A stretch of 64,000 nucleotides of DNA, taken from contig NC_019703.1 of assembly GCF_000317045.1 (NCBI RefSeq), positions 2,654,501 through 2,718,500 of the forward strand. Reading direction: 5' to 3'. Under the pieces are notes generated by a model. The model saw only the letters and a program-made list of their open reading frames with translations, ran no database searches and was not told the DNA's origin. The position numbers were made by a program, and so were the translations under genes. The first letter of the stretch is position 1. Each line of letters begins with the position of its first letter. The DNA comes from Geitlerinema sp. PCC 7407. GTDB taxonomy: Bacteria > Cyanobacteriota > Cyanobacteriia > PCC-7407. Positions 9,234-52,589 of the stretch are shown piece by piece.

Positions 9234-10859
9234 CTACAAGCTCGCCACCTGGAAGCGAGAAATCTCTCGACGCAGATTTTGGGCCACATCATTGAGTTGC
9301 TCGATGGCGCTATTGGTCTCTCGCAGCGACGTCGCCGTCTGCTGAAACGCCTCACTCAGCTGCAGCATCGAATCACTGATCTGCTGCGCCCCCTGAGACT
9401 GAGCGTCCATTCCCTGATTGACCAGGGAGAACTGCGGCACCAGCGCCTGTACCTGCTCGATCACGCGGGCCAGCTGCGAGCTGATGCTGCGCACATCTTC
9501 TACCCCCCGATCGACTTCGCGGGCGAACTTGTCCATTTCCATCACCCCGGTCGAAACCGAAGACTGCATTTCCTTGACCATCTGCTCGATATCCAGGGTC
9601 GCCACCGCGGTCTGATCGGCCAGCCGCCGAATCTCTCGGGCCACCACCGCGAACCCCAGGCCATACTCGCCTGCTTTCTCCGCTTCGATCGCCGCATTGA
9701 GAGACAGCAAGTTGGTTTGGTCAGCCACCTTCGTGATGGTAGTCACCACATTATTAATGTTGTTGGCTTTCTCACTCATGACCCCCAGCTTAGAAGAGAT
9801 CGAATTGGTGGCCTCTGCTAGCTGGCGCATCGTCATTTCCATCCGGCTGAGCCCCTGCTGGCCGTTGTCAGCAGCGCCAGTCGTCGCGTCAGCCATCGCC
9901 GTCACCTCATCCATGGTGCGCAGCAGCTCTGCGGAGGTGGCCGCGATCTCCTTGGCCGTCGCCACCACCTGATTGGTCGAGGCCACCTGCTCCGTCATCG
10001 TCGCCTCAAGCTCTTTGCCAGAGGCGGCGATCTGAGTGGCGGAGGTGGTGACCTGGATCCCCGACTGCTGCACCTGACGCACCAGCGTATTGAGGTTGAG
10101 GGTCATCCCTTCAAAGGCGGTCAGCAATTGTCCTACTTCGTCTTTGCTGCTGGTCTCCCCGGAGGCAGACTGGGTGAGATCGCCTGCGGAGATGCGCTCT
10201 GCCATCTGCACGACGCGGGTGATGCGCGATCCCAAAAACTTGGCGATGAGAAAGGTCGCATAGATGGCGATCGCCAAGGACAAGATCGCAGTCAAAACCG
10301 CTGAGCCACTCAATAGATTCAAGGTCGATCGCGTCGCCTGGATATTATCAATTAAGATCCGCTGTTCAGTCTCTACAAACTCTTCGTAGAGCGCTTCAAA
10401 GCGATCGTTGAGCTCTCGGCTGCGATCGAGATAGCTCTGGATTAATCGGGGATTGATTCCCCCTCGGCCTGCTGCCAAGATATCTCGGGTAACCGTCTGG
10501 ACCTCTTCGCTCAGGACTAGCATTTCCTGGAGACGAGACTCCTGGCCCGGATCGGTCACGACGGCTCCAATCGACTCGGCTCCGTCATTGATGCGCTCGA
10601 TATCACTGGCTATACGCTGATCCACTTCCGTGCTGTTGTTTGTCAGGAGATAGCGGCGAACCCGACGATCGAGGTTCATCAGGCCCTGAGCCATTTCATT
10701 GGCCCCCAGAATGGCCGTTTCGGATGAATCTACCTGATTAAACGTGTGGATCGTTTTACTAGCCGTTAAATAAACCAGTCCACAAAAGATAAAGATGAGA
10801 CCAGTAGGCACTGCATAACCGAGCAGCGTGCGGTCTCGCAATTTGAGATTGGCGAACAT
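9234..10859 (-). CDS. Methyl-accepting chemotaxis protein (WspA-like)
   Basis: 541 residues. Membrane segment 1 is at about 13-32 and segment 2 at about 182-207; between them is a helical ligand-binding region of the four-helix-bundle type. A HAMP domain follows (about 208-262), then a cytoplasmic signalling hairpin (about 270-520) whose tip region contains NLLSLNAAIEAEKAGEYG and EIRRLADQT. There is no C-terminal pentapeptide for docking CheR, consistent with a stand-alone CheR-TPR in this set. The gene is first in the run MCP-CheW-CheA-CheB. The signal sensed is unknown. Confidence 0.94.
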   Translation of the reverse strand: MFANLKLRDRTLLGYAVPTGLIFIFCGLVYLTASKTIHTFNQVDSSETAILGANEMAQGLMNLDRRVRRYLLTNNSTEVDQRIASDIERINDGAESIGAVVTDPGQESRLQEMLVLSEEVQTVTRDILAAGRGGINPRLIQSYLDRSRELNDRFEALYEEFVETEQRILIDNIQATRSTLNLLSGSAVLTAILSLAIAIYATFLIAKFLGSRITRVVQMAERISAGDLTQSASGETSSKDEVGQLLTAFEGMTLNLNTLVRQVQQSGIQVTTSATQIAASGKELEATMTEQVASTNQVVATAKEIAATSAELLRTMDEVTAMADATTGAADNGQQGLSRMEMTMRQLAEATNSISSKLGVMSEKANNINNVVTTITKVADQTNLLSLNAAIEAEKAGEYGLGFAVVAREIRRLADQTAVATLDIEQMVKEMQSSVSTGVMEMDKFAREVDRGVEDVRSISSQLARVIEQVQALVPQFSLVNQGMDAQSQGAQQISDSMLQLSEAFQQTATSLRETNSAIEQLNDVAQNLRREISRFQVASL

Positions 10860-43684: not shown

Positions 43685-43704
43685 CCCCGTCTCCATACAA
43701 CCCC

Positions 43705-43743
43705 AAACCGCCTCTGTATTCACTCACAATACAGAGACGGTTT
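43705..43743 (+). terminator. Terminator-like hairpin at the end of the exopolysaccharide cluster
   Basis: AAACCGCCTCTGTATT (43705-43720) and AATACAGAGACGGTTT (43728-43743) form a 16-bp stem with one mismatch and a 7-base loop, 20 bases after the last glycosyltransferase stop. The stem ends in TTT. Composition turns AT-rich immediately after. Confidence 0.75.
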
Positions 43744-43985
43744 GCATATCTCGCGGAAGTTTTATCTTGAAGCATCAAATATTCTCAAGATCAACTCAAA
43801 ATTTTAAGAAAGAACAGTAATTTACATTTTTACGTCGGTCGTTATATTTTTGTAATTTCAATAATCAATCCTTAAAGGATTACAGTGTCAGCAAATGAAG
43901 TAGTAAAGATTTTCATAGAATTATCCAAGATTGGTTTTGGTTAGATAGTATTGCTTTTTGAGCGACAGGGAGAAATAAGCAAAAA
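43744..43985. other. AT-rich gap at the edge of the accessory island
   Basis: About 240 bases, AT-rich, with no credible frame. It should carry the promoter of the HEPN-like gene. The sharp composition change after the hairpin suggests the left edge of a transferred segment. Confidence 0.4.
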
Positions 43986-45371
43986 ATGTTTTTCAAGGAA
44001 GAATTAATAGGCCAAGGGAACAACATAGAACTATTTAACAATATTGGATGTATAGATAATCTTGAAGGCCGTTTAACGGTTTGGCTAGCAATTCATCAAA
44101 CTCCACGAGTTCACTGGGAATTCGAAGCAGCTCGAGGAGGATATAACTCTGACTTTACCTCTCTTAACTGGACATCTCAAAAACTAACGTCTTGGAATGG
44201 TTCAGATCCTCAGTTTGTAGTTGAGAAGCCAACATTTACATTTCGAGGCGGCAGAAGACAACAAATTAGAGGCTATGCAGAGCGAGCTTTATATGGAGAT
44301 ATAAACGCAGATGCTCACTATTTTGATTTTTATCTACCGAATACAGATTTTTTAAGAGAGGCTACAGGTTGTAAGCTTGCAGATGTCAGTAAGGCATTAA
44401 AATGTGAATCTTTCTTAGTAGAAATTAGTAACAATTGGAGCATTGAACTTTCCACAAACCAAGATGCTCTAGATTGGCTGAAGCCAGAAGCTCAGAATAG
44501 AGGATCAATGATCACTTTAAAGATTCAGTTATTTCAAAGCAAACAACATTCCACAAAAATTCAGGAGCTATCAAATAAATCTTTATCTGACGCCAGCACA
44601 ATTCTCTCAGACTTATGTTTAATGCTGTCATATATAAATGGAGGATATATTAAATCGATTTATGCAGTTGCAAGGAAGTTCGTGAACATGGAGGAGGGTC
44701 AAATAGTAATTGAAGATGTAGCCTCATTAGCTGAAGCGCCTCTCATTGTTCCGCAAGAAGAACTAGGACAAGGTTGCATTAGATATTTTGGCATGAACGA
44801 CTTATTAGATCTTCTTCAATGTTTTCCAACTTTTCAACGAATGCTGCAAACCACTCATTGGAAGGAGAAATGGATTGTTCTTTTGGAGTGGTACTTTCAA
44901 GCAATTCCAAGAGTATCTGGACGTAGAAGAAATGTTTTTTTACCTGTTGTTGCCAATGCACTTGGAACATTGCTAGAAAATTTAGCACGTTTAGTTTTAG
45001 TTGATGATGCTTCTAATCCAAGTCAACAAGAAAAAGATTTTAACAATAGAAGTTTAGCATCTCGCAACGGATACAATGGAATTAGTGAATATAGAATTGA
45101 TACTCTTTTACAACGAATTGGTATATCTAGCGACAGGGACCTTGTTATAAAATTCATTAGAATTCGCAATAATGCAACTCATGCAGGACTCAAACCTAGC
45201 AATCTAACTGCAATTGAGGAATGGGAGGTTGTACAAAAAGCAATCCAATGGGTAGATGAGGTAGTTCTGTGGAGAATTGGTTATGGAGGGCAATATAGAA
45301 AGAGAAGCCTATATTCAACTCAGGGAATCCAACCTCGTTATGACCTTTCCCAGAGAGAGTCAAGTTGGTAG
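43986..45371 (+). CDS. HEPN-domain protein, ApeA-like
   Basis: 461 residues, soluble, AT-rich gene. The C-terminal third is helical and contains IRNNATHAG with Arg394 and His399, the R-X4-H active site of HEPN ribonucleases. The downstream WVDEVVLWRIGYGG is similar to the tail of HEPN_ApeA domains. The N-terminal 300 residues, starting with a beta-rich part (GRLTVWLAI, VHWEFEA), resemble ApeA N-terminal domains that sense phage components, though this is from memory of the family. HEPN proteins of this type cut RNA and stop growth on infection. A defence role is inferred, not shown. Confidence 0.65.
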   Translation: MFFKEELIGQGNNIELFNNIGCIDNLEGRLTVWLAIHQTPRVHWEFEAARGGYNSDFTSLNWTSQKLTSWNGSDPQFVVEKPTFTFRGGRRQQIRGYAERALYGDINADAHYFDFYLPNTDFLREATGCKLADVSKALKCESFLVEISNNWSIELSTNQDALDWLKPEAQNRGSMITLKIQLFQSKQHSTKIQELSNKSLSDASTILSDLCLMLSYINGGYIKSIYAVARKFVNMEEGQIVIEDVASLAEAPLIVPQEELGQGCIRYFGMNDLLDLLQCFPTFQRMLQTTHWKEKWIVLLEWYFQAIPRVSGRRRNVFLPVVANALGTLLENLARLVLVDDASNPSQQEKDFNNRSLASRNGYNGISEYRIDTLLQRIGISSDRDLVIKFIRIRNNATHAGLKPSNLTAIEEWEVVQKAIQWVDEVVLWRIGYGGQYRKRSLYSTQGIQPRYDLSQRESSW

Positions 45372-45418
45372 CTTAGGCAGCAAACAACTTGAGTACAGCA
45401 AATTTAGATAGGCTACTG

Positions 45419-45453
45419 GTGCTTAATTAAAGATACCTAGAACCGCTAAGCAC
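45419..45453 (+). other. Inverted repeat after the HEPN-like gene
   Basis: GTGCTTA (45419-45425) is mirrored by TAAGCAC (45447-45453) with a 21-base loop. It has no T-tract and no R'/R'' boxes, so it is neither a clear terminator nor an attC site. Confidence 0.35.
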
Positions 45454-45495
45454 GGAGGAAGTAGGATCTACAATCTAGTTCACTTATTACAAGAT

Positions 45496-45597
45496 GATCG
45501 CTGTATATTTATGCCAAAGGTTTAGACAGCGATCGCCCTCTTTTCGTCTATAGTCCTACATATCGATCGCGAGCTAAGAGCAAGCAAGATTTTGTTC
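45496..45597 (+). repeat. HIP1-bearing hairpin repeat, copy B
   Basis: GATCGCTGT (45496-45504) and ACAGCGATC (45526-45534) enclose a 21-base loop. The following bases (GACAGCGATCGCCCT, TATAGT, then AGAGCAAGCA) match the copy at 46551-46653 over about 70 bases. It lies 54 bases before the beta-lactamase-like gene and may carry its promoter. Confidence 0.7.
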
Positions 45598-45650
45598 ACC
45601 GAGCATAACTCTTGTTTGCTCACATTAAGACAGCATCGACAAGGAGGACT

Positions 45651-46520
45651 ATGAGCCGAGCAGTTCGCTTTGCAGGGATTGTTCTTATTTCGTTGATCTG
45701 TATTGTCTTTACCCTCTTTCAGGCAACGCAAGCATCACCGGCCCCAGAACAGTCAACAATCGTGACGCTGCCTGCCGCAAATATTGCTCAAAACTTAGAT
45801 TTTGGGCGACACTTCCAGGATTTGGAAGTTGAGGGCTCAATCATAATTTACGACTCGAGTAACGATCGAGTCTTTCAGCACAACCCCCAGCGCAATACAA
45901 CCGCTTTTTTGCCTGCATCAACCTTCAAGATTCTCAACTCTCTGATCTCACTCGAAACCGGAGTCATTTCTGATGAAATTGCCGTTCTGACATGGGACGG
46001 AATTTCCAGAAAGATTCCCGTCTGGAATCGGGACTTGAATATGAGAGAGGCCATCAAGATTTCTGCCATCTGGTTCTATCAGGTTCTGGCTCGCAAAGTG
46101 GGGCACGACCGGATGCAAGAATGGGTGACCCAAGTGGGATACGGAAACCAACAGATTGGTGGAAGCGAAGATATTGATCAATTCTGGCTCCGGGGAGATC
46201 TGCGAATCACCCCCCAAGAGCAAATCCAGTTTCTCCGCCGTCTATACACGAATGATTTACCCTTTTCTGAGCGATCGATCTCTATTGTCAAAGACATCCT
46301 GATCATGGAGAAAACGCCAGACTATACAATCACTGGAAAGACGGGCTGGGTGGGGGTTGCAGATGACGTAACCCCAAAAATTGGGTGGTATGTTGGCTAT
46401 GTGGAGAAGGGAAAGAATGTCTACTTTTTTGCCACCAACATCGACATTCGGAATGAGAGCGACCCCGCAGCCCGAGTGGAGTTAACGCGTCGCTGCCTTC
46501 AAGATCTAGCAGTGCTGTAA
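45651..46520 (+). CDS. Class D beta-lactamase (OXA-like) homologue
   Basis: 289 residues from the ATG at 45651, with GGAGG four bases upstream. The signal peptide is about 1-28 (VLISLICIVFTLFQATQA). Active-site motifs: S90-T-F-K93, S138-A-I140 in the usual S-x-V position, Y164-G-N166, and K230-T-G232 followed by W. The conserved FWLRGDL...IQFLRRL region also fits class D. The S-A-I variant is conservative. It would hydrolyse beta-lactams in the periplasm or act as a penicillin-binding relative; which one cannot be told. It sits in the accessory island. Confidence 0.85.
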   Translation: MSRAVRFAGIVLISLICIVFTLFQATQASPAPEQSTIVTLPAANIAQNLDFGRHFQDLEVEGSIIIYDSSNDRVFQHNPQRNTTAFLPASTFKILNSLISLETGVISDEIAVLTWDGISRKIPVWNRDLNMREAIKISAIWFYQVLARKVGHDRMQEWVTQVGYGNQQIGGSEDIDQFWLRGDLRITPQEQIQFLRRLYTNDLPFSERSISIVKDILIMEKTPDYTITGKTGWVGVADDVTPKIGWYVGYVEKGKNVYFFATNIDIRNESDPAARVELTRRCLQDLAVL

Positions 46521-46550
46521 TCAACTTGCTTACAGTGCAGCAGAGTTTAT

Positions 46551-46653
46551 TAATATTGCAGGGGCGATCGCCGTCTTTTAGAGATTCAGACAGCGATCGC
46601 CCTTTTGTCGTTTATAGTTCTGTATATCAGTCACCAACTCAGAGCAAGCAGCT
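46551..46653 (+). repeat. HIP1-bearing hairpin repeat, copy A
   Basis: GGGCGATCGC (46562-46571) and GCGATCGCCC (46593-46602) form a perfect 10-bp stem with a 21-base loop. Downstream it continues TATAGTTCTGTATATC and AGAGCAAGCA, as in copy B. It lies between the beta-lactamase-like gene and the next secreted protein gene. Confidence 0.75.
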
Positions 46654-46691
46654 TTCGTTTACAAGTTTCACTATCTTGAGGACCTTGCGTC

Positions 46692-47201
46692 ATGAAAACC
46701 ATGTTTTTTCTCATAGGTAGCCTGCCGCTTTTTTTGCTCACTTTTCAGTCAGCAGGATGGGCAGAAACAGAGAAAGACAATGTTCAGACGCTTTACAGCT
46801 ACCTAGAGGGAGCTGAGCAATGGGTCTGCTCTTATATTCGGGATACCCGCGAGATCATTACATTTCATCGCTGGAGCAAGCCCGAGGTGGGGAGCCAGGC
46901 TCTAACCTTAGTCGTTCACTCTCAAGATCCAGAGCTCCTAGGAAGCTGTACTGTGGTGGCTTTTGAGACTCTCCGGAATGCCGCCTTTGAAATGAAAACC
47001 GCCCCTCCCAAGGTCCGGACCATCCACTACCTCATCGACTCGGTTGGCAATGTCACCCGTTCCAGTCGCCAGGTGTACCATTGCTCGGTGCCGAGACAGA
47101 TACGCGACCATCTCACAGAACTTGATTATGACGACGCCTACGGTTTGGGAGGCTTTGAGGCGCTTTGTGAACCCGAGCAGCAGAAGTCACGCGGCCTCTA
47201 A
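46692..47201 (+). CDS. Secreted hypothetical protein
   Basis: 169 residues. An N-terminal signal peptide (FLIGSLPLFLLTFQSAGWAE) is followed by a soluble domain with three Cys (about residues 36, 74 and 130). No family recognised. It follows a copy of the hairpin repeat that also precedes the beta-lactamase-like gene, so the two may share regulation. The start lacks a strong ribosome site. Confidence 0.6.
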   Translation: MKTMFFLIGSLPLFLLTFQSAGWAETEKDNVQTLYSYLEGAEQWVCSYIRDTREIITFHRWSKPEVGSQALTLVVHSQDPELLGSCTVVAFETLRNAAFEMKTAPPKVRTIHYLIDSVGNVTRSSRQVYHCSVPRQIRDHLTELDYDDAYGLGGFEALCEPEQQKSRGL

Positions 47202-47375
47202 AGCCTTTAAATCAAAGCGCTGATGAGCGCTCGCCTTGAGCGGGTGATGGCCCGAGATGCTTCGGTCCATATTCCTATATCAAACCACCAGCTTCGAGAG
47301 ATTAATGAGCGCGCATTGCTCGTTGATCTTCTGTGGGGTTTGGTGATTAACAGCTTTGAGTTTTAGGATGAGAGG

Positions 47376-47413
47376 GCGATCGCTCATCAGCATCACAAAC
47401 TCCGCATCTTGGG
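47376..47413 (-). pseudogene. Displaced fragment of the GNAT-synthetase gene
   Basis: These 38 bases match 49836-49873, inside the acyl-CoA synthetase/GNAT gene, at 36 of 38 positions. On the minus strand they encode QDAEFVMLMSDR, as in the GNAT domain ([12 protein letters not shown]). Similarity stops abruptly on both sides. It looks like a scar of recombination or a deleted second copy. Confidence 0.6.
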
Positions 47414-47527
47414 CTTTGCATCGATGGCAAGCAGCTCGTTCAACGATTGAAAGAGTCAGGACTTAGTGTCAAAATCAAAATAATTGAGTCGGTAGAAGTT
47501 GACACAGCCTGGTTTGCAAAACTTTGA
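47414..47527 (+). pseudogene. 3' remnant of an unknown gene
   Basis: A frame ending in TGA at 47525-47527 encodes DGKQLVQRLKESGLSVK followed by IKIIESVEVDTAWFAKL. It looks coding but has no start codon: the open frame begins at 47372 and crosses the GNAT fragment. The 5' part of this gene was probably lost at the junction. It ends 15 bases before the next gene, so it once belonged to that operon. Confidence 0.45.
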
Positions 47528-47542
47528 TGTCTTGGGGGTCAA

Positions 47543-47782
47543 ATGGCTACAACTCTTAAAAGTCCATCAGCTCTAATTCATGAAATCCAGCTCGAAAAAG
47601 TTGGCAACTGGAATTTATTCAGATTCAGTGACTCTCTTCAGGCGCGAATGGAAAATCTTCTAGAAATCAAAAAATCTGATCAAATCACTCTTGATGAACT
47701 CGCTGAATTAGATGCAATTGGAGAACTAGATCGTATTTTTACCCATATAAACGCAATGCTTGCTGCTCAAAATGCCCATTAG
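47543..47782 (+). CDS. Small hypothetical protein upstream of an HNH nuclease
   Basis: 79 residues, acidic and helical (LDELAELDAIGELDRIF). No signal peptide. It overlaps the HNH gene by 11 bases, which suggests a two-gene unit. GGGGG lies seven bases before the ATG. Function unknown; an accessory or inhibitor protein for the nuclease is only a possibility. Confidence 0.6.
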   Translation: MATTLKSPSALIHEIQLEKVGNWNLFRFSDSLQARMENLLEIKKSDQITLDELAELDAIGELDRIFTHINAMLAAQNAH

Positions 47783-48224
47783 TGACGAACTCAAGCAAGC
47801 CATTCGAGAACGCGCCAAGTATCTTTGCGAGTATTGTCATTCCCCAGAGCGCTTGAGCGCTAGTCACTTTACCATCGATCATCTCGTTCCCAGATCCTTG
47901 GGCGGCTCTGATGAGCTCAACAATCTTGCACTTGCCTGTCGTCGTTGCAATGAGAGGCGCTACAACTTTGTGGCTGGCATTGATCCGGAGACTCAGGACA
48001 TCGTTCCCATTTTTAATCCTCGTAAACAGAGGTGGGCCGATCATTTTATCTGGCGAGATCAGGGAGTTTTAATAGAAGGAACTACGCCAACAGGTCGCGC
48101 AACTTGCATTCGTCTTGATTTGAACGATAACCGCTATGTAGAGAACGATTCCATTCGAGCAGCGAGACGATTTTGGACGCAAACTGGATTGCACCCTCCA
48201 GCAGATAATCCGTGTCAGGCTTAA
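47772..48224 (+). CDS. HNH endonuclease
   Basis: 150 residues from the ATG at 47772. The HNH motif is complete: CEYC (zinc), FTIDHLVPRSLGG (catalytic His) and NLALACRRCNERR (second zinc pair). Residues 75-140 form a C-terminal extension common in cyanobacterial HNH proteins. It would cut DNA with a divalent metal. It overlaps the preceding small gene. Confidence 0.85.
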   Translation: MPISDELKQAIRERAKYLCEYCHSPERLSASHFTIDHLVPRSLGGSDELNNLALACRRCNERRYNFVAGIDPETQDIVPIFNPRKQRWADHFIWRDQGVLIEGTTPTGRATCIRLDLNDNRYVENDSIRAARRFWTQTGLHPPADNPCQA

Positions 48225-48350
48225 AAAAGATGATTGTGAGCCAGCTAACCCTACGTGACAGCGGACAGCCAAGGGACTTTAGGGAAAATTCAAAGTTCTC
48301 ACCGCCACTGCATTTCACTATCAAAACAGGTTCCAAAGCATAGTTCATTT

Positions 48351-48390
48351 ATTGCAGGGGCGATCGCTGTTTTCGAGATATCTAAGCAGC
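48351..48390 (+). repeat. HIP1-bearing hairpin repeat, partial copy C
   Basis: ATTGCAGGGGCGATCGC matches the left arm of copy A exactly; the stretch then runs on with GAGATATCTAAGCAGC and ends before the right arm. It lies in the 213-base gap between the two HNH genes. Confidence 0.6.
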
Positions 48391-48437
48391 AAGTAATCAA
48401 GCACATGATCTAGTATGGAGATCACGATTGCCATGAA

Positions 48438-49610
48438 ATGTCACTCATGTGTCTCTGCATTTATTGCAAAAAATCTGATGATGGGTTCACGCTAGAACAT
48501 ATTATTCCTCAGTTTCTCGGCGGTGCGCAGGCACCTGACAAGCTAAAAACAAGAGATGTATGCAGGAAGTGCAACAGCAATCTTGGGCTGTTTGTAGATG
48601 CAGCGTTTGAAAAAGATTTTCTTGTCTTCGATACACTAAAAGAGTCTGAATATTTTTTCTTCAACTCTGAGAAAGCTATTGCATTACCTCTCACATGTAA
48701 GGGAATCTCAGATTTGATCATTCCTGAGATGGAGGAAAATGAGATATGTGAAGCTTGGCAGGGACCTTTAGGAGAGCAGGTCTATTGGGTGAGAGAACAA
48801 GATAAGCGGATGAATTCGTATTCTGGTGGTAATCCAAGAACAGGCAAAAAAGTACCGTCTAGAGCCTACTTTATATGCTCTGAAAGGTCACAAGAAGATA
48901 TCTTGCAAACTTGGCGAGCTTTTAAAAATGCTTTTGCGGATCGTCCAGTCAAGAAAATTATGTGTACCAAAATCAAAGGTGCCGATCTCAGGGCTATTGG
49001 TTTTTCCGAACCAGATGAATTAGACGATTTACGAATTCAATACATACTCAACCAGTGTAAATCGGGAAAACGACGTAGGAGTGAGATATTAATTGACAGA
49101 CGCTGTCATATGCGTTTTATGGCTAAACTTGCATTAGGCATGTCACATGTTTTATTTGGTCGTCATGCAGGAAATTCAGAGTATTCCGAGGAACTCTATA
49201 AGGCTCTGTGGTTCAAAGAGGGAAATGTAGAGCCAAATATTCATTATGAAAAAGAGCTCTCTAATTCAGATCCAAATCAATTTCTTACGAAGTATCATGG
49301 CATCCCTTACGGAGTTACAATCACAATTTTCCCTTCTCCTCAAGGAGTTATCGTAAATCTTAATCTAAATAGAAGAATGAACTGGGCGATTGTCTGTGCA
49401 AAAAGACAAGACTTGACTAGCAAACAGATTGAAGATCTGCGAGATGGTATTTGTATTGTTCTCGTTAAATCTTTAAAGAAAGGATTAGAACTATCTCTCT
49501 CTCAATTGACAGATCACAATTTGGGTAGGCTGCGTCATCCTGGCTTGTCTGAGATTGAAAGGCTAGTAGTTAATTACTATGAGAGCGATCGCCTTCTTCG
49601 AGATCTCTAA
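48438..49610 (+). CDS. HNH endonuclease-domain protein
   Basis: 390 residues. An N-terminal HNH_5-type motif: CIYC, FTLEHIIPQFLGG and CRKCNSNLG (residues 6-60). The remaining 330 residues have no family I recognise; they are mixed alpha/beta. It may be a restriction-like effector with a large sensor part. The gene is AT-rich like its neighbours. The stop lies inside hairpin repeat copy D. Confidence 0.75.
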   Translation: MSLMCLCIYCKKSDDGFTLEHIIPQFLGGAQAPDKLKTRDVCRKCNSNLGLFVDAAFEKDFLVFDTLKESEYFFFNSEKAIALPLTCKGISDLIIPEMEENEICEAWQGPLGEQVYWVREQDKRMNSYSGGNPRTGKKVPSRAYFICSERSQEDILQTWRAFKNAFADRPVKKIMCTKIKGADLRAIGFSEPDELDDLRIQYILNQCKSGKRRRSEILIDRRCHMRFMAKLALGMSHVLFGRHAGNSEYSEELYKALWFKEGNVEPNIHYEKELSNSDPNQFLTKYHGIPYGVTITIFPSPQGVIVNLNLNRRMNWAIVCAKRQDLTSKQIEDLRDGICIVLVKSLKKGLELSLSQLTDHNLGRLRHPGLSEIERLVVNYYESDRLLRDL

Positions 49611-49655
49611 AAGACAGCGATCGCCCTCTTTCTATCTCTCACCCTATAGATCGAT
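49582..49655. repeat. HIP1-bearing hairpin repeat, copy D
   Basis: Two HIP1 octamers (49585-49592 and 49617-49624) flank 24 bases including GAGATCTCTAAAAGACA; the right half continues GCCCTCTTTC and CTATAGATCGATCGAG like copy B. It overlaps the end of the HNH-domain gene and reaches the end of the convergent synthetase gene. Confidence 0.6.
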
Positions 49656-52412
49656 CGAGACAAACATCACCGACGGGTCAGCGGTGGGCTGGAGCTGGAA
49701 GCCCAGCTTGGTGCAGACATGCTGCATTCCCTGGTTGTCGGACAGGATCTCCGCCGTGATGCGCTGGAGGTGCTCATCGCGCCCCACCTGGACCAGTCGC
49801 CGCAGCAGCTCCGACCCGAGTCCCTGACACTGCCAGCGATCGCTCACCAGCATCGCAAACTCCGCATCTTGGGTGCCGTGCAGCTTGCTCAGACGCCCGA
49901 TCGCCAAGAGCTGGGGTTTCTGGGTTTCGGGGTTGTGGTACTCCGCCACCAGCGCCATTTCCCGATCGTAGTCAATGAAGCACATCCGCGTTAGGCGCTC
50001 GTGGGCGACGCGGTGGCTGAGCTTCATCAGGTGGAAATAGCGGAAATATACGCTCTCCTCCGACAGAGACTCGTGAAAGTCCACCATCAGCGGCTCATCC
50101 TCCGGGCGAATGGGCCGAATGGTGATCTCTAGGTCATTCTTGAGCCGCCACGGCGCGACATAGCGGCTCGGGTAGGGCCGGATCGCCAGCTTCGGCAGAT
50201 CTTCTAGGCGCGTGCTGGCCGGGTGCAGCACCATGCGGGCATCGAGGGCCAGCAGCGGCGCAGGGGCGTCAGCGCTGCGCACCAGCAGCGGGTTAATGTC
50301 GATTTCCTGGACCCAGGGCTGTTCTACGACCAGGCGGCTAAAGCGCACCAGCAGCGTTTCTAGGGCCGCCAAGTCACTGGCCGTGCGGCCCCGAACACCC
50401 TGAAGCGCCTTATAAATTCGGGTCTGCTCCATCATCCGGCGCGCCAGGGTGGTGTTGAGGGGCGGCAGGGCGATCGCCCGGTCCTGCATCACCTCCACCA
50501 GCTGGCCGCCCGAACCAAACAGCAGCACCGGGCCAAACTGCGGGTCCAGACTGCTGCCAATGATCAGCTCATAGCCGTCCAGCTTGATCATCGGCTGCAC
50601 CGTCACCCCTTGGAAGTGCTCCGCGCCGGCCCGCTCAGTAACGGAGGTCTGGATTTCACCGTAGGCCCGGCGCACCGCGTCTGCATCTGGCAGATTCAGC
50701 TTGATGCCGCCCACGTCGGTCTTGTGGGTGATGGTTTCCGAGAAGAGCTTGAGCACCGCCGGATAGGCGATCGCCTCGGCATGGGCCACGGCCTCCTCCA
50801 CAGTGCGAGCGATGCGCGTCTCCACCGTGGGAATGCCGTAGGCCGCCAGCACTTGCTTGGCCTCTCCTTCGGTTAGCAGGGTCCGGCCCGCCGCCCGCAC
50901 CTGCTCCAGGACCGCTGCCACCTGGGCGCGATCGGGGGCATCATCGTCCGAGGGCAGCGTTGGCGTCTCATAGATGCCGCGCAGGTTGTAGCTCGATCGC
51001 CACAGATAGCTAAACACCCGCGCCGCCGTATCGGGATAGGGATAGGTCGGCACCCCGGCCCCGTTGAGGATCAGCTCTCCCGCCGAGACATCCGCGCCGC
51101 CCATCCAGCTCGCCAAAATCGGCTTGCGGGTCTTGGCGTGGACCGGCTTCTGGGTTTTGAGGAAGGTCTTGAGCTGCTCGGCGGTCTGGGTGGGGTCGGT
51201 CATGGCCTGGGGCGTCAAGATCACCAGCAGGCCGTCACTCTCGGGATCGTCCGCCGCCACGGCCAGGGTCTTGAGATAGCGATCGGGATCGGCGTCCCCG
51301 AGGATGTCGATGGGGTTGGCGTGGCTCCAGAAGGGGGGCAAAAACTCGCTCATCGTGGCGATCGCCTCCTCCGAGAGGGGCGTCAGCTCGCCCTGGGAGC
51401 CGATCAGCGCGTCGGTGGCCAGCACCGCCGGTCCCCCCGCATTGGTGATGATGGTCAGGCGGGGGCCTTTGGGTCGGGGCTGCTTCGCCAGCACCTCCGC
51501 CATGTCGAACAGGTCAGAAATATGGTCCACTCGCAGCACCCCACAGCGCCGGAACGCCGCATCCAGCACCGCGTCGCTCCCCGCCAGAGCGCCCGTGTGG
51601 GACGCCGCCGCCTTGGCCGCCGCCTCCGTGCGGCCCGCCTTGATCACGATGATCGGCTTGGTCAGCGCCACCTCCCGCGCCGCCGACAAAAACGATCGCG
51701 CGTCCCCGATGGACTCCATATAGATGACGATGCTGTGGGTGTGGGGATCGTCGCCCAGGTAATAGATCAAGTCGCCCCAGCCCACATCCAGCATGGAGCC
51801 AATGGACATAAAGGCGCTGAAGCCGACATTTTCTCGGAAGCTCCAGTCCAGAATGGCCGTGCACAGCGCCCCGCTCTGGCTAATGAAGCCCACGTTGCCG
51901 GGGCGGGCCATGGCGCTGGCGAAGGTGGCGTTGAGGCCGGTGAGGGGATTCATCACGCCGAGGCAGTTGGGGCCGATCAGGCGCATCTTGCCCCGGCGAA
52001 TTTCCTGGAGGACTTCCTGCTCGAGGCGCAGTCCCTCAGCCCCGATTTCTTTGAAGCCCGCGGAGAGGACGATGGCCCCCTTGACCCCGGCGGCCACGCA
52101 CTCGCGCAGCACCCCCGGGACCGTCGCGGCGGGGGTGGCAATCACGGCCAGATCGACGGCATCGGGCACCGCCGCGATCGAGGGATAGGCCTTAATGCCC
52201 AAAATGCTGTTGCGCTTGGGGTTGACCGGAAAAACAGTCCCGCCAAAGGCATTGGTGATCAGGTTCCACAGCAGGGTCCGGCCGACACTGCCTTCTCGCT
52301 CGGTGGCGCCGATGACGGCGATCGCCCGGGGCCGGAAGATGGCGTCGAGGGGCTGGCGATCGGTCCGCAGAATGTCGTTTGCAGGGTCGGTGGTTCGTGG
52401 CGTCGTCTGCAT
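49644..52412 (-). CDS. Fused NDP-forming acyl-CoA synthetase and GNAT acetyltransferase (Pat-like)
   Basis: 922 residues from the ATG at 52412, with GGGAG six bases upstream; a frame from 52469 adds a non-conserved leader. Order: CoA-binding (about 10-115), succinyl-CoA-ligase-like domains (about 130-300), ATP-grasp (about 485-710), GNAT (about 755-915, [13 protein letters not shown] acetyl-CoA loop). SHTGALAG contains His272 at the phosphohistidine position of active synthetases, so the first half may be catalytic, unlike some Pat enzymes. It may acetylate proteins such as acetyl-CoA synthetase. Convergent to the HNH gene. Confidence 0.88.
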
Positions 52413-52589
52413 GATTAGCTCCCTGGCACAGCTGGACGGAAAAAGTCTCAAGGGCTTGGACTGCCCCAACGATAATTCACCGCTGAGCGATCGCTAAATT
52501 TAGTCCAAGTGTTTTCCAAAATGCCGTCTTGACCCTAAAAGGCGATCGCCGCTCAGGCCGGTTGCGCAGCCCTCTGTAGCTCCTCTGAT

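Follow-up and report, generated by a model that had tools for sequence, protein, structure and literature searches.

The question raised by this locus is whether a solitary gene of Geitlerinema sp. PCC 7407, lying in an AT-rich island, encodes a phage-defence RNase that acts by itself. Single-gene phage defence is little known in cyanobacteria, and the preliminary description of the window (by which we mean the whole 64,000-nucleotide stretch of DNA that was analysed) had proposed an ApeA-like HEPN protein with a beta-rich sensor and a HEPN end. The open reading frame at 43986-45371 (+) exists as described, begins with ATG, and encodes a protein of 461 amino acids. We consider it likely that this is a diverged ApeA-like HEPN RNase that senses phage through its beta domain and provides abortive infection, the copy found here being a horizontally acquired one that stands alone. 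The features on which the argument draws are the following:

43986..45371, + strand: gene for the predicted ApeA-like HEPN protein, 461 aa (open reading frame, homologues, pLDDT 81.5, dN/dS 0.17)
44025..44735, + strand: beta-rich N-terminal region, residues 14-250, a proposed sensor (AlphaFold2 secondary structure; sensing role suggested by the architecture of ApeA, PMC3710099)
44793..45278, + strand: predicted helical HEPN domain, residues about 270-431 (domain-only model and VIA-align)
44976..44978, + strand: codon of E331, an invariant acidic residue (its counterpart in the alignment with canonical ApeA, E310, is likewise invariant)
45165..45182, + strand: R394-N395-N-A-T-H399, the predicted RNase motif Rx4H (sequence and homologue alignment)
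45279..45368, + strand: C-terminal tail, residues 432-461, with the clade signature GYxxxYxxR...RYdLxxR...W (columns invariant or nearly invariant in alignment A3)

The case begins with the sequence IRNNATHAG, which occupies residues 392-400 and contains the single Rx4H of the whole protein, with R394 and H399 at the positions first reported. In the HEPN superfamily the Rx4-6H motif forms the RNase site and the residue following R is polar (PMC3710099), and R394-N395-x3-H399 has both properties. The arginine and histidine content of the protein leads one to expect 0.39 Rx4H motifs by chance, as compared with 0.05 for R-[NDH]-x3-H; the Rx4H motif alone is thus not above chance, could be a chance occurrence, and needs the support of relatives. 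In successive alignments R394, N395 and H399 are invariant (9/9, 11/11 and 14/14 aligned homologues), and E331, upstream of the motif, is likewise invariant in A3, the 14-row alignment of homologues of the window protein. A role for the acidic residue of helix 2 in HEPN domains is given in PMC3710099.

Searches of the standard family collections assign the protein to no Pfam, NCBIfam or PADLOC family, and the profile check suggested in the preliminary description went against it, with neither ApeA_NTD1 (PF18862) nor HEPN_Apea (PF18739) matching at E<=1 in Pfam. Weak matches to Vps39_1 (E 0.15) and HORMA (E 0.038) are not credible, and sequence searches of solved structures returned nothing. 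Some homologues do match HEPN_Apea below threshold, the best at E 3e-4 with 21.7 bits against a cut-off of 24.4, and where positions are shown these matches recur at the motif, both in the clade of the window protein and in the sister clade introduced below. ApeA_NTD1 matched neither the homologues scanned nor anything in the genome from which the window comes.

The predicted structure bears out the two-part build, since in the whole-protein AlphaFold2 model calculated on A3 (mean pLDDT 81.5, pTM 0.84) the strands fall within residues 14-250, with one long helix at 200-218, and are followed by helices within 270-431. The C-terminal HEPN part modelled alone reaches a pLDDT of 83.7, and in VIA-align its top 23 rows are all HEPN proteins (Z 8.1-5.1, the first unrelated row having 5.0), among them HEPN toxins, Csm6, AbiV and YutE; the best of these rows has Z 8.1 over 122 residues at an rmsd of 3.3, and Z values of 5-8 are modest for a helical bundle. 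With the whole model as query, the HEPN protein 2hsb comes first (Z 7.2). Foldseek against the PDB and viral models gave nothing significant, with no match at E<=0.001, and the assignment of the fold therefore rests on the consistent VIA-align ranking together with the motif. On these models the C-terminal domain is shown to have a HEPN-like, four-helix fold, and the HEPN end that had been expected of a predicted structure is found there. For the N-terminal beta-rich part neither Foldseek nor VIA-align yields a clear match in the PDB; VIA-align rows pointing to an Hcp tube or an AdoMet decarboxylase (Z 4-5) were treated as chance arrangements of beta strands.

Whether the protein may be called ApeA-like depends on profile comparisons with canonical ApeA, for which we collected cyanobacterial proteins by PF18739 and PF18862 and aligned them (A5). 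Compared directly, A3 and A5 show no significant similarity (prob 1.3), and the kinship rests for this reason on an intermediate, the sister clade or clade B (L031 and L072-L082, aligned as A6). The match between A3 and A6 runs over 383 columns, almost the full length (prob 99.3, E 3e-20), that between A6 and canonical ApeA covers 296 columns (prob 91.6, E 8e-7), the pooled A3 and A6 profile finds ApeA at E 8e-7, and the controls with reversed and shuffled ApeA profiles are negative (E>=0.098). In the pooled alignment the counterparts of E331, R394, N395 and H399 in the first ApeA row are E310, R390, N391 and H395. According to the literature, ApeA-NTD1 is about 300 aa long, mostly beta in structure, and fused to HEPN (PMC3710099). 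As far as profiles can tell, the window protein is ApeA-like by descent, through remote homology by way of the sister clade, and is not an ApeA by the Pfam definition; the label first given to it thus holds in the sense of distant kinship but not in that of membership of the family, and the standard profiles miss the homology. The second clade is itself more diverse, consisting of HEPN proteins of about 450 aa that have no Pfam assignment above cut-off, some of which match HEPN_Apea below threshold.

The relatives of the window protein are few and scattered. Its closest homologues, at 72% and 70%, are found in two genomes from another family, and more distant ones, at 28-37%, are spread across the cyanobacteria. 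A single-sequence search of the class found homologues in 13 of 390 genomes, a patchy occurrence; an alignment-based scan of contigs returned 13 homologues, all cyanobacterial, as against none in a single-protein scan of the same contigs. Homologue loci come from Pantanalinema, Symplocastrum, Brasilonema, Scytonema, Nodularia, Coleofasciculus, Pseudanabaena, Phormidium, Pegethrix and Nodosilinea, and no homologues were found in the viral contigs, plasmids and phages searched. To judge from these comparisons, the protein belongs to an unrecognised ApeA-like HEPN clade that is, in these searches, confined to cyanobacteria. In the tree the window protein groups with its counterparts from Pantanalinema and Symplocastrum, with full support and across host families, and this, taken with the gene's low GC (0.374; GC3 0.262), suggests that the gene was acquired by horizontal transfer. 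Compared with the Pantanalinema homologue, its nearest relative, the gene has a dN/dS of 0.17 (NG86) and is therefore under purifying selection. Elsewhere the L004 homologue is broken by an internal TAA stop and the L037 homologue (9242-10303) is interrupted by an inserted transposase-like gene, broken copies being what is expected for an accessory gene.

The surroundings of the gene are defined by two further features:

43704..43744, + strand: hairpin at the island's left edge, 3' of the glycosyltransferase gene that lies upstream (17-nt arms, 94% complementary)
43750..49600, no strand: AT-rich island with the HEPN gene, a class D beta-lactamase gene, two HNH genes and small open reading frames (GC profile)

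Measured within the 64-kb window, the island extends over 5.9 kb with a GC of 0.42 as compared with 0.58 to its left; as far as about 43.72 kb GC stays near 0.62, past 43.75 kb it falls to 0.23-0.38, and near 49.6 kb it is again 0.6. The break in composition is thus real, but the gene begins about 240 bp after it, and not exactly at it as had been said. Similarly, the hairpin that follows the glycosyltransferase gene is strong (-23.9 kcal/mol, z -5.6) but has no T-tract, which makes 'terminator' an interpretation. An Rfam scan of the window returned nothing. The island also contains, on the + strand, a chromosomal class D beta-lactamase gene at 45612-46520 (NCBIfam NF012161, 289 bits against a cut-off of 250) and HNH nuclease genes at 47760-48224 and 48438-49610, the former resembling PtuB of Septu (PADLOC E 7.6e-13) and having no PtuA adjoining. 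Between the genes of the island are interspersed repeats of about 40-70 nt (45518-45586, 46582-46650, 49612-49660, 46554-46594 and 48350-48390), each with a GCGATCGC (HIP1-like) core, at about 80% identity and some of them inverted. A stretch of 38 nt at 47376-47413 is 95% identical to 49836-49873, within the gene at 49644-52469, and is possibly a fragment copy left from the formation of the island.

In some relatives the gene keeps different company. In L023, L024 and L025 it is followed by a PLD-SNF2 helicase gene, whose start it overlaps by 11 bases in L023 and L025 and from which 28 bp separate it in L024, and a DUF1156 methyltransferase is encoded upstream in L024 (profile-tested, HmaB-like) and in L025 (by sequence likeness); L024 further has an IetAS pair and an HmaC/DUF499-like fragment. 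The two loci L024 (1-14611) and L025 (1-14612), defence loci with a DUF1156 methyltransferase, a PLD-SNF2 helicase and HEPN, also have DUF7680 (tested in L025) and a PD-(D/E)xK gene (L025). L023 and L025 share 86% identity, and L024 shares 42% with each of them, so that these contexts represent only about two lineages. Loci combining a DUF499 ATPase, an N6-methyltransferase and a helicase have been described as BREX-related systems (the 'Hma' of others), in which the helicase of type 2 bears an HKD (PLD-type) nuclease and HEPN RNases serve as accessory or auxiliary effectors (PMC12839542), and L023-L025 fit this pattern. Most homologues stand alone (L014, L015, L016, L017, L020, L021, L022, L034-L036 and L039). 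No recognised core defence gene lies beside the window copy, its neighbourhood has no DUF499/DUF1156/helicase locus, and neither DUF499 nor DUF1156 occurs in the whole genome; we therefore regard it as an orphan and have rejected a tie to a resident Hma/BREX-related system. 'Single-gene' accordingly describes the window copy, but not several homologues that are embedded in multi-gene defence operons.

The mechanism that we infer, with its dimerisation, RNase activity, trigger sensing, horizontal transfer and phage protection, would run as follows. The beta-rich N-terminal part, of about 250 residues, would sense a phage-borne trigger or keep the enzyme inactive, and the C-terminal HEPN domain, probably dimeric, would be a metal-independent endoribonuclease using E331, R394, N395 and H399. 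Upon infection this domain would cut cellular or phage RNA, growth would halt, and phage multiplication would be blocked, that is, abortive infection, which for the orphan window copy acting as a single gene is plausible. In some relatives the same protein may supply the RNase activity of a DUF499/DUF1156/PLD-helicase operon. It is possible, if tentative, that this is a hitherto undescribed cyanobacterial family, overlooked by current defence-finding models, which serves in both capacities, protecting on its own by abortive infection and acting as an interchangeable effector in DUF499/BREX-related operons, and that its own conserved C-terminal tail may control its activity.

A narrower reading takes the protein for an accessory RNase dedicated to DUF499-centred BREX-related (Hma) systems, of which the window copy would be a relic or orphan that has lost its partner genes and may do little alone. 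The tight packing of the HEPN gene before the helicase gene in L023, L024 and L025, the DUF1156 methyltransferase upstream in two of them, the auxiliary role of HEPN RNases in such systems (PMC12839542), and a genome devoid of DUF499 and DUF1156 all speak for it, but the majority of homologues stand alone, the clade of the window protein is distinct from the one linked to operons, and the window gene is unbroken and shows purifying selection when compared with its stand-alone relatives, so that we hold this reading to be unlikely. Quite unlikely, too, is a toxin or stress RNase of the toxin-antitoxin or programmed-arrest kind that is not specific to phage and is neutralised by its own N-terminal domain: the architecture fits ApeA and not MNT/HEPN, the recurrent operon partners are defence genes, and no conserved antitoxin gene lies beside the window gene or its homologues, although the closest solved folds are HEPN toxins of HEPN-MNT pairs and small toxin-antitoxin-like genes occur near several homologues. 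That the protein has the HEPN fold and no RNase activity, being an RNA-binding or regulatory protein in which Rx4H is structural, finds precedent in HEPN families that are inactive (PMC3710099), yet the invariance of R, N, H and E across highly diverged homologues, in alignment with the ApeA residues, makes this very improbable.

Two related clades of HEPN proteins of about 450 aa escape the Pfam cut-offs, and the members tested are also missed by NCBIfam and PADLOC, so that such HEPN genes are probably under-counted. The occurrence of the protein both alone and in a DUF499/DUF1156/helicase operon would moreover make it possible to test directly whether HEPN effectors pass between stand-alone and multi-gene defence.

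Set beside known systems, the protein shares its predicted HEPN fold with the HEPN toxins of HEPN-MNT pairs (7ae6, 7ae8), Csm6 and AbiV (Z 8.1-6), but in place of an MNT antitoxin, a CARF domain or an Abi partner it has a large beta-rich N-terminus. With the DUF499-centred BREX-related or Hma systems it is connected through L023-L025, whose HEPN genes accompany a DUF1156 methyltransferase and/or a PLD-SNF2 helicase, whereas the window copy is without such partners, in a genome without DUF499 or DUF1156. The third comparison is with ApeA (PF18862 and PF18739): the window protein differs from it in lacking both a Pfam match and the WWLPxxP start of canonical ApeA, in failing the direct profile comparison, and in the C-terminal signature GYxxxY...RYdLxxR...W that its clade conserves for itself, but resembles it in its length class of about 450-550 aa, in a beta-rich N-terminal part, in a predicted C-terminal HEPN domain with RNxxxH and a conserved upstream Glu, and in the profile link that runs through clade B.
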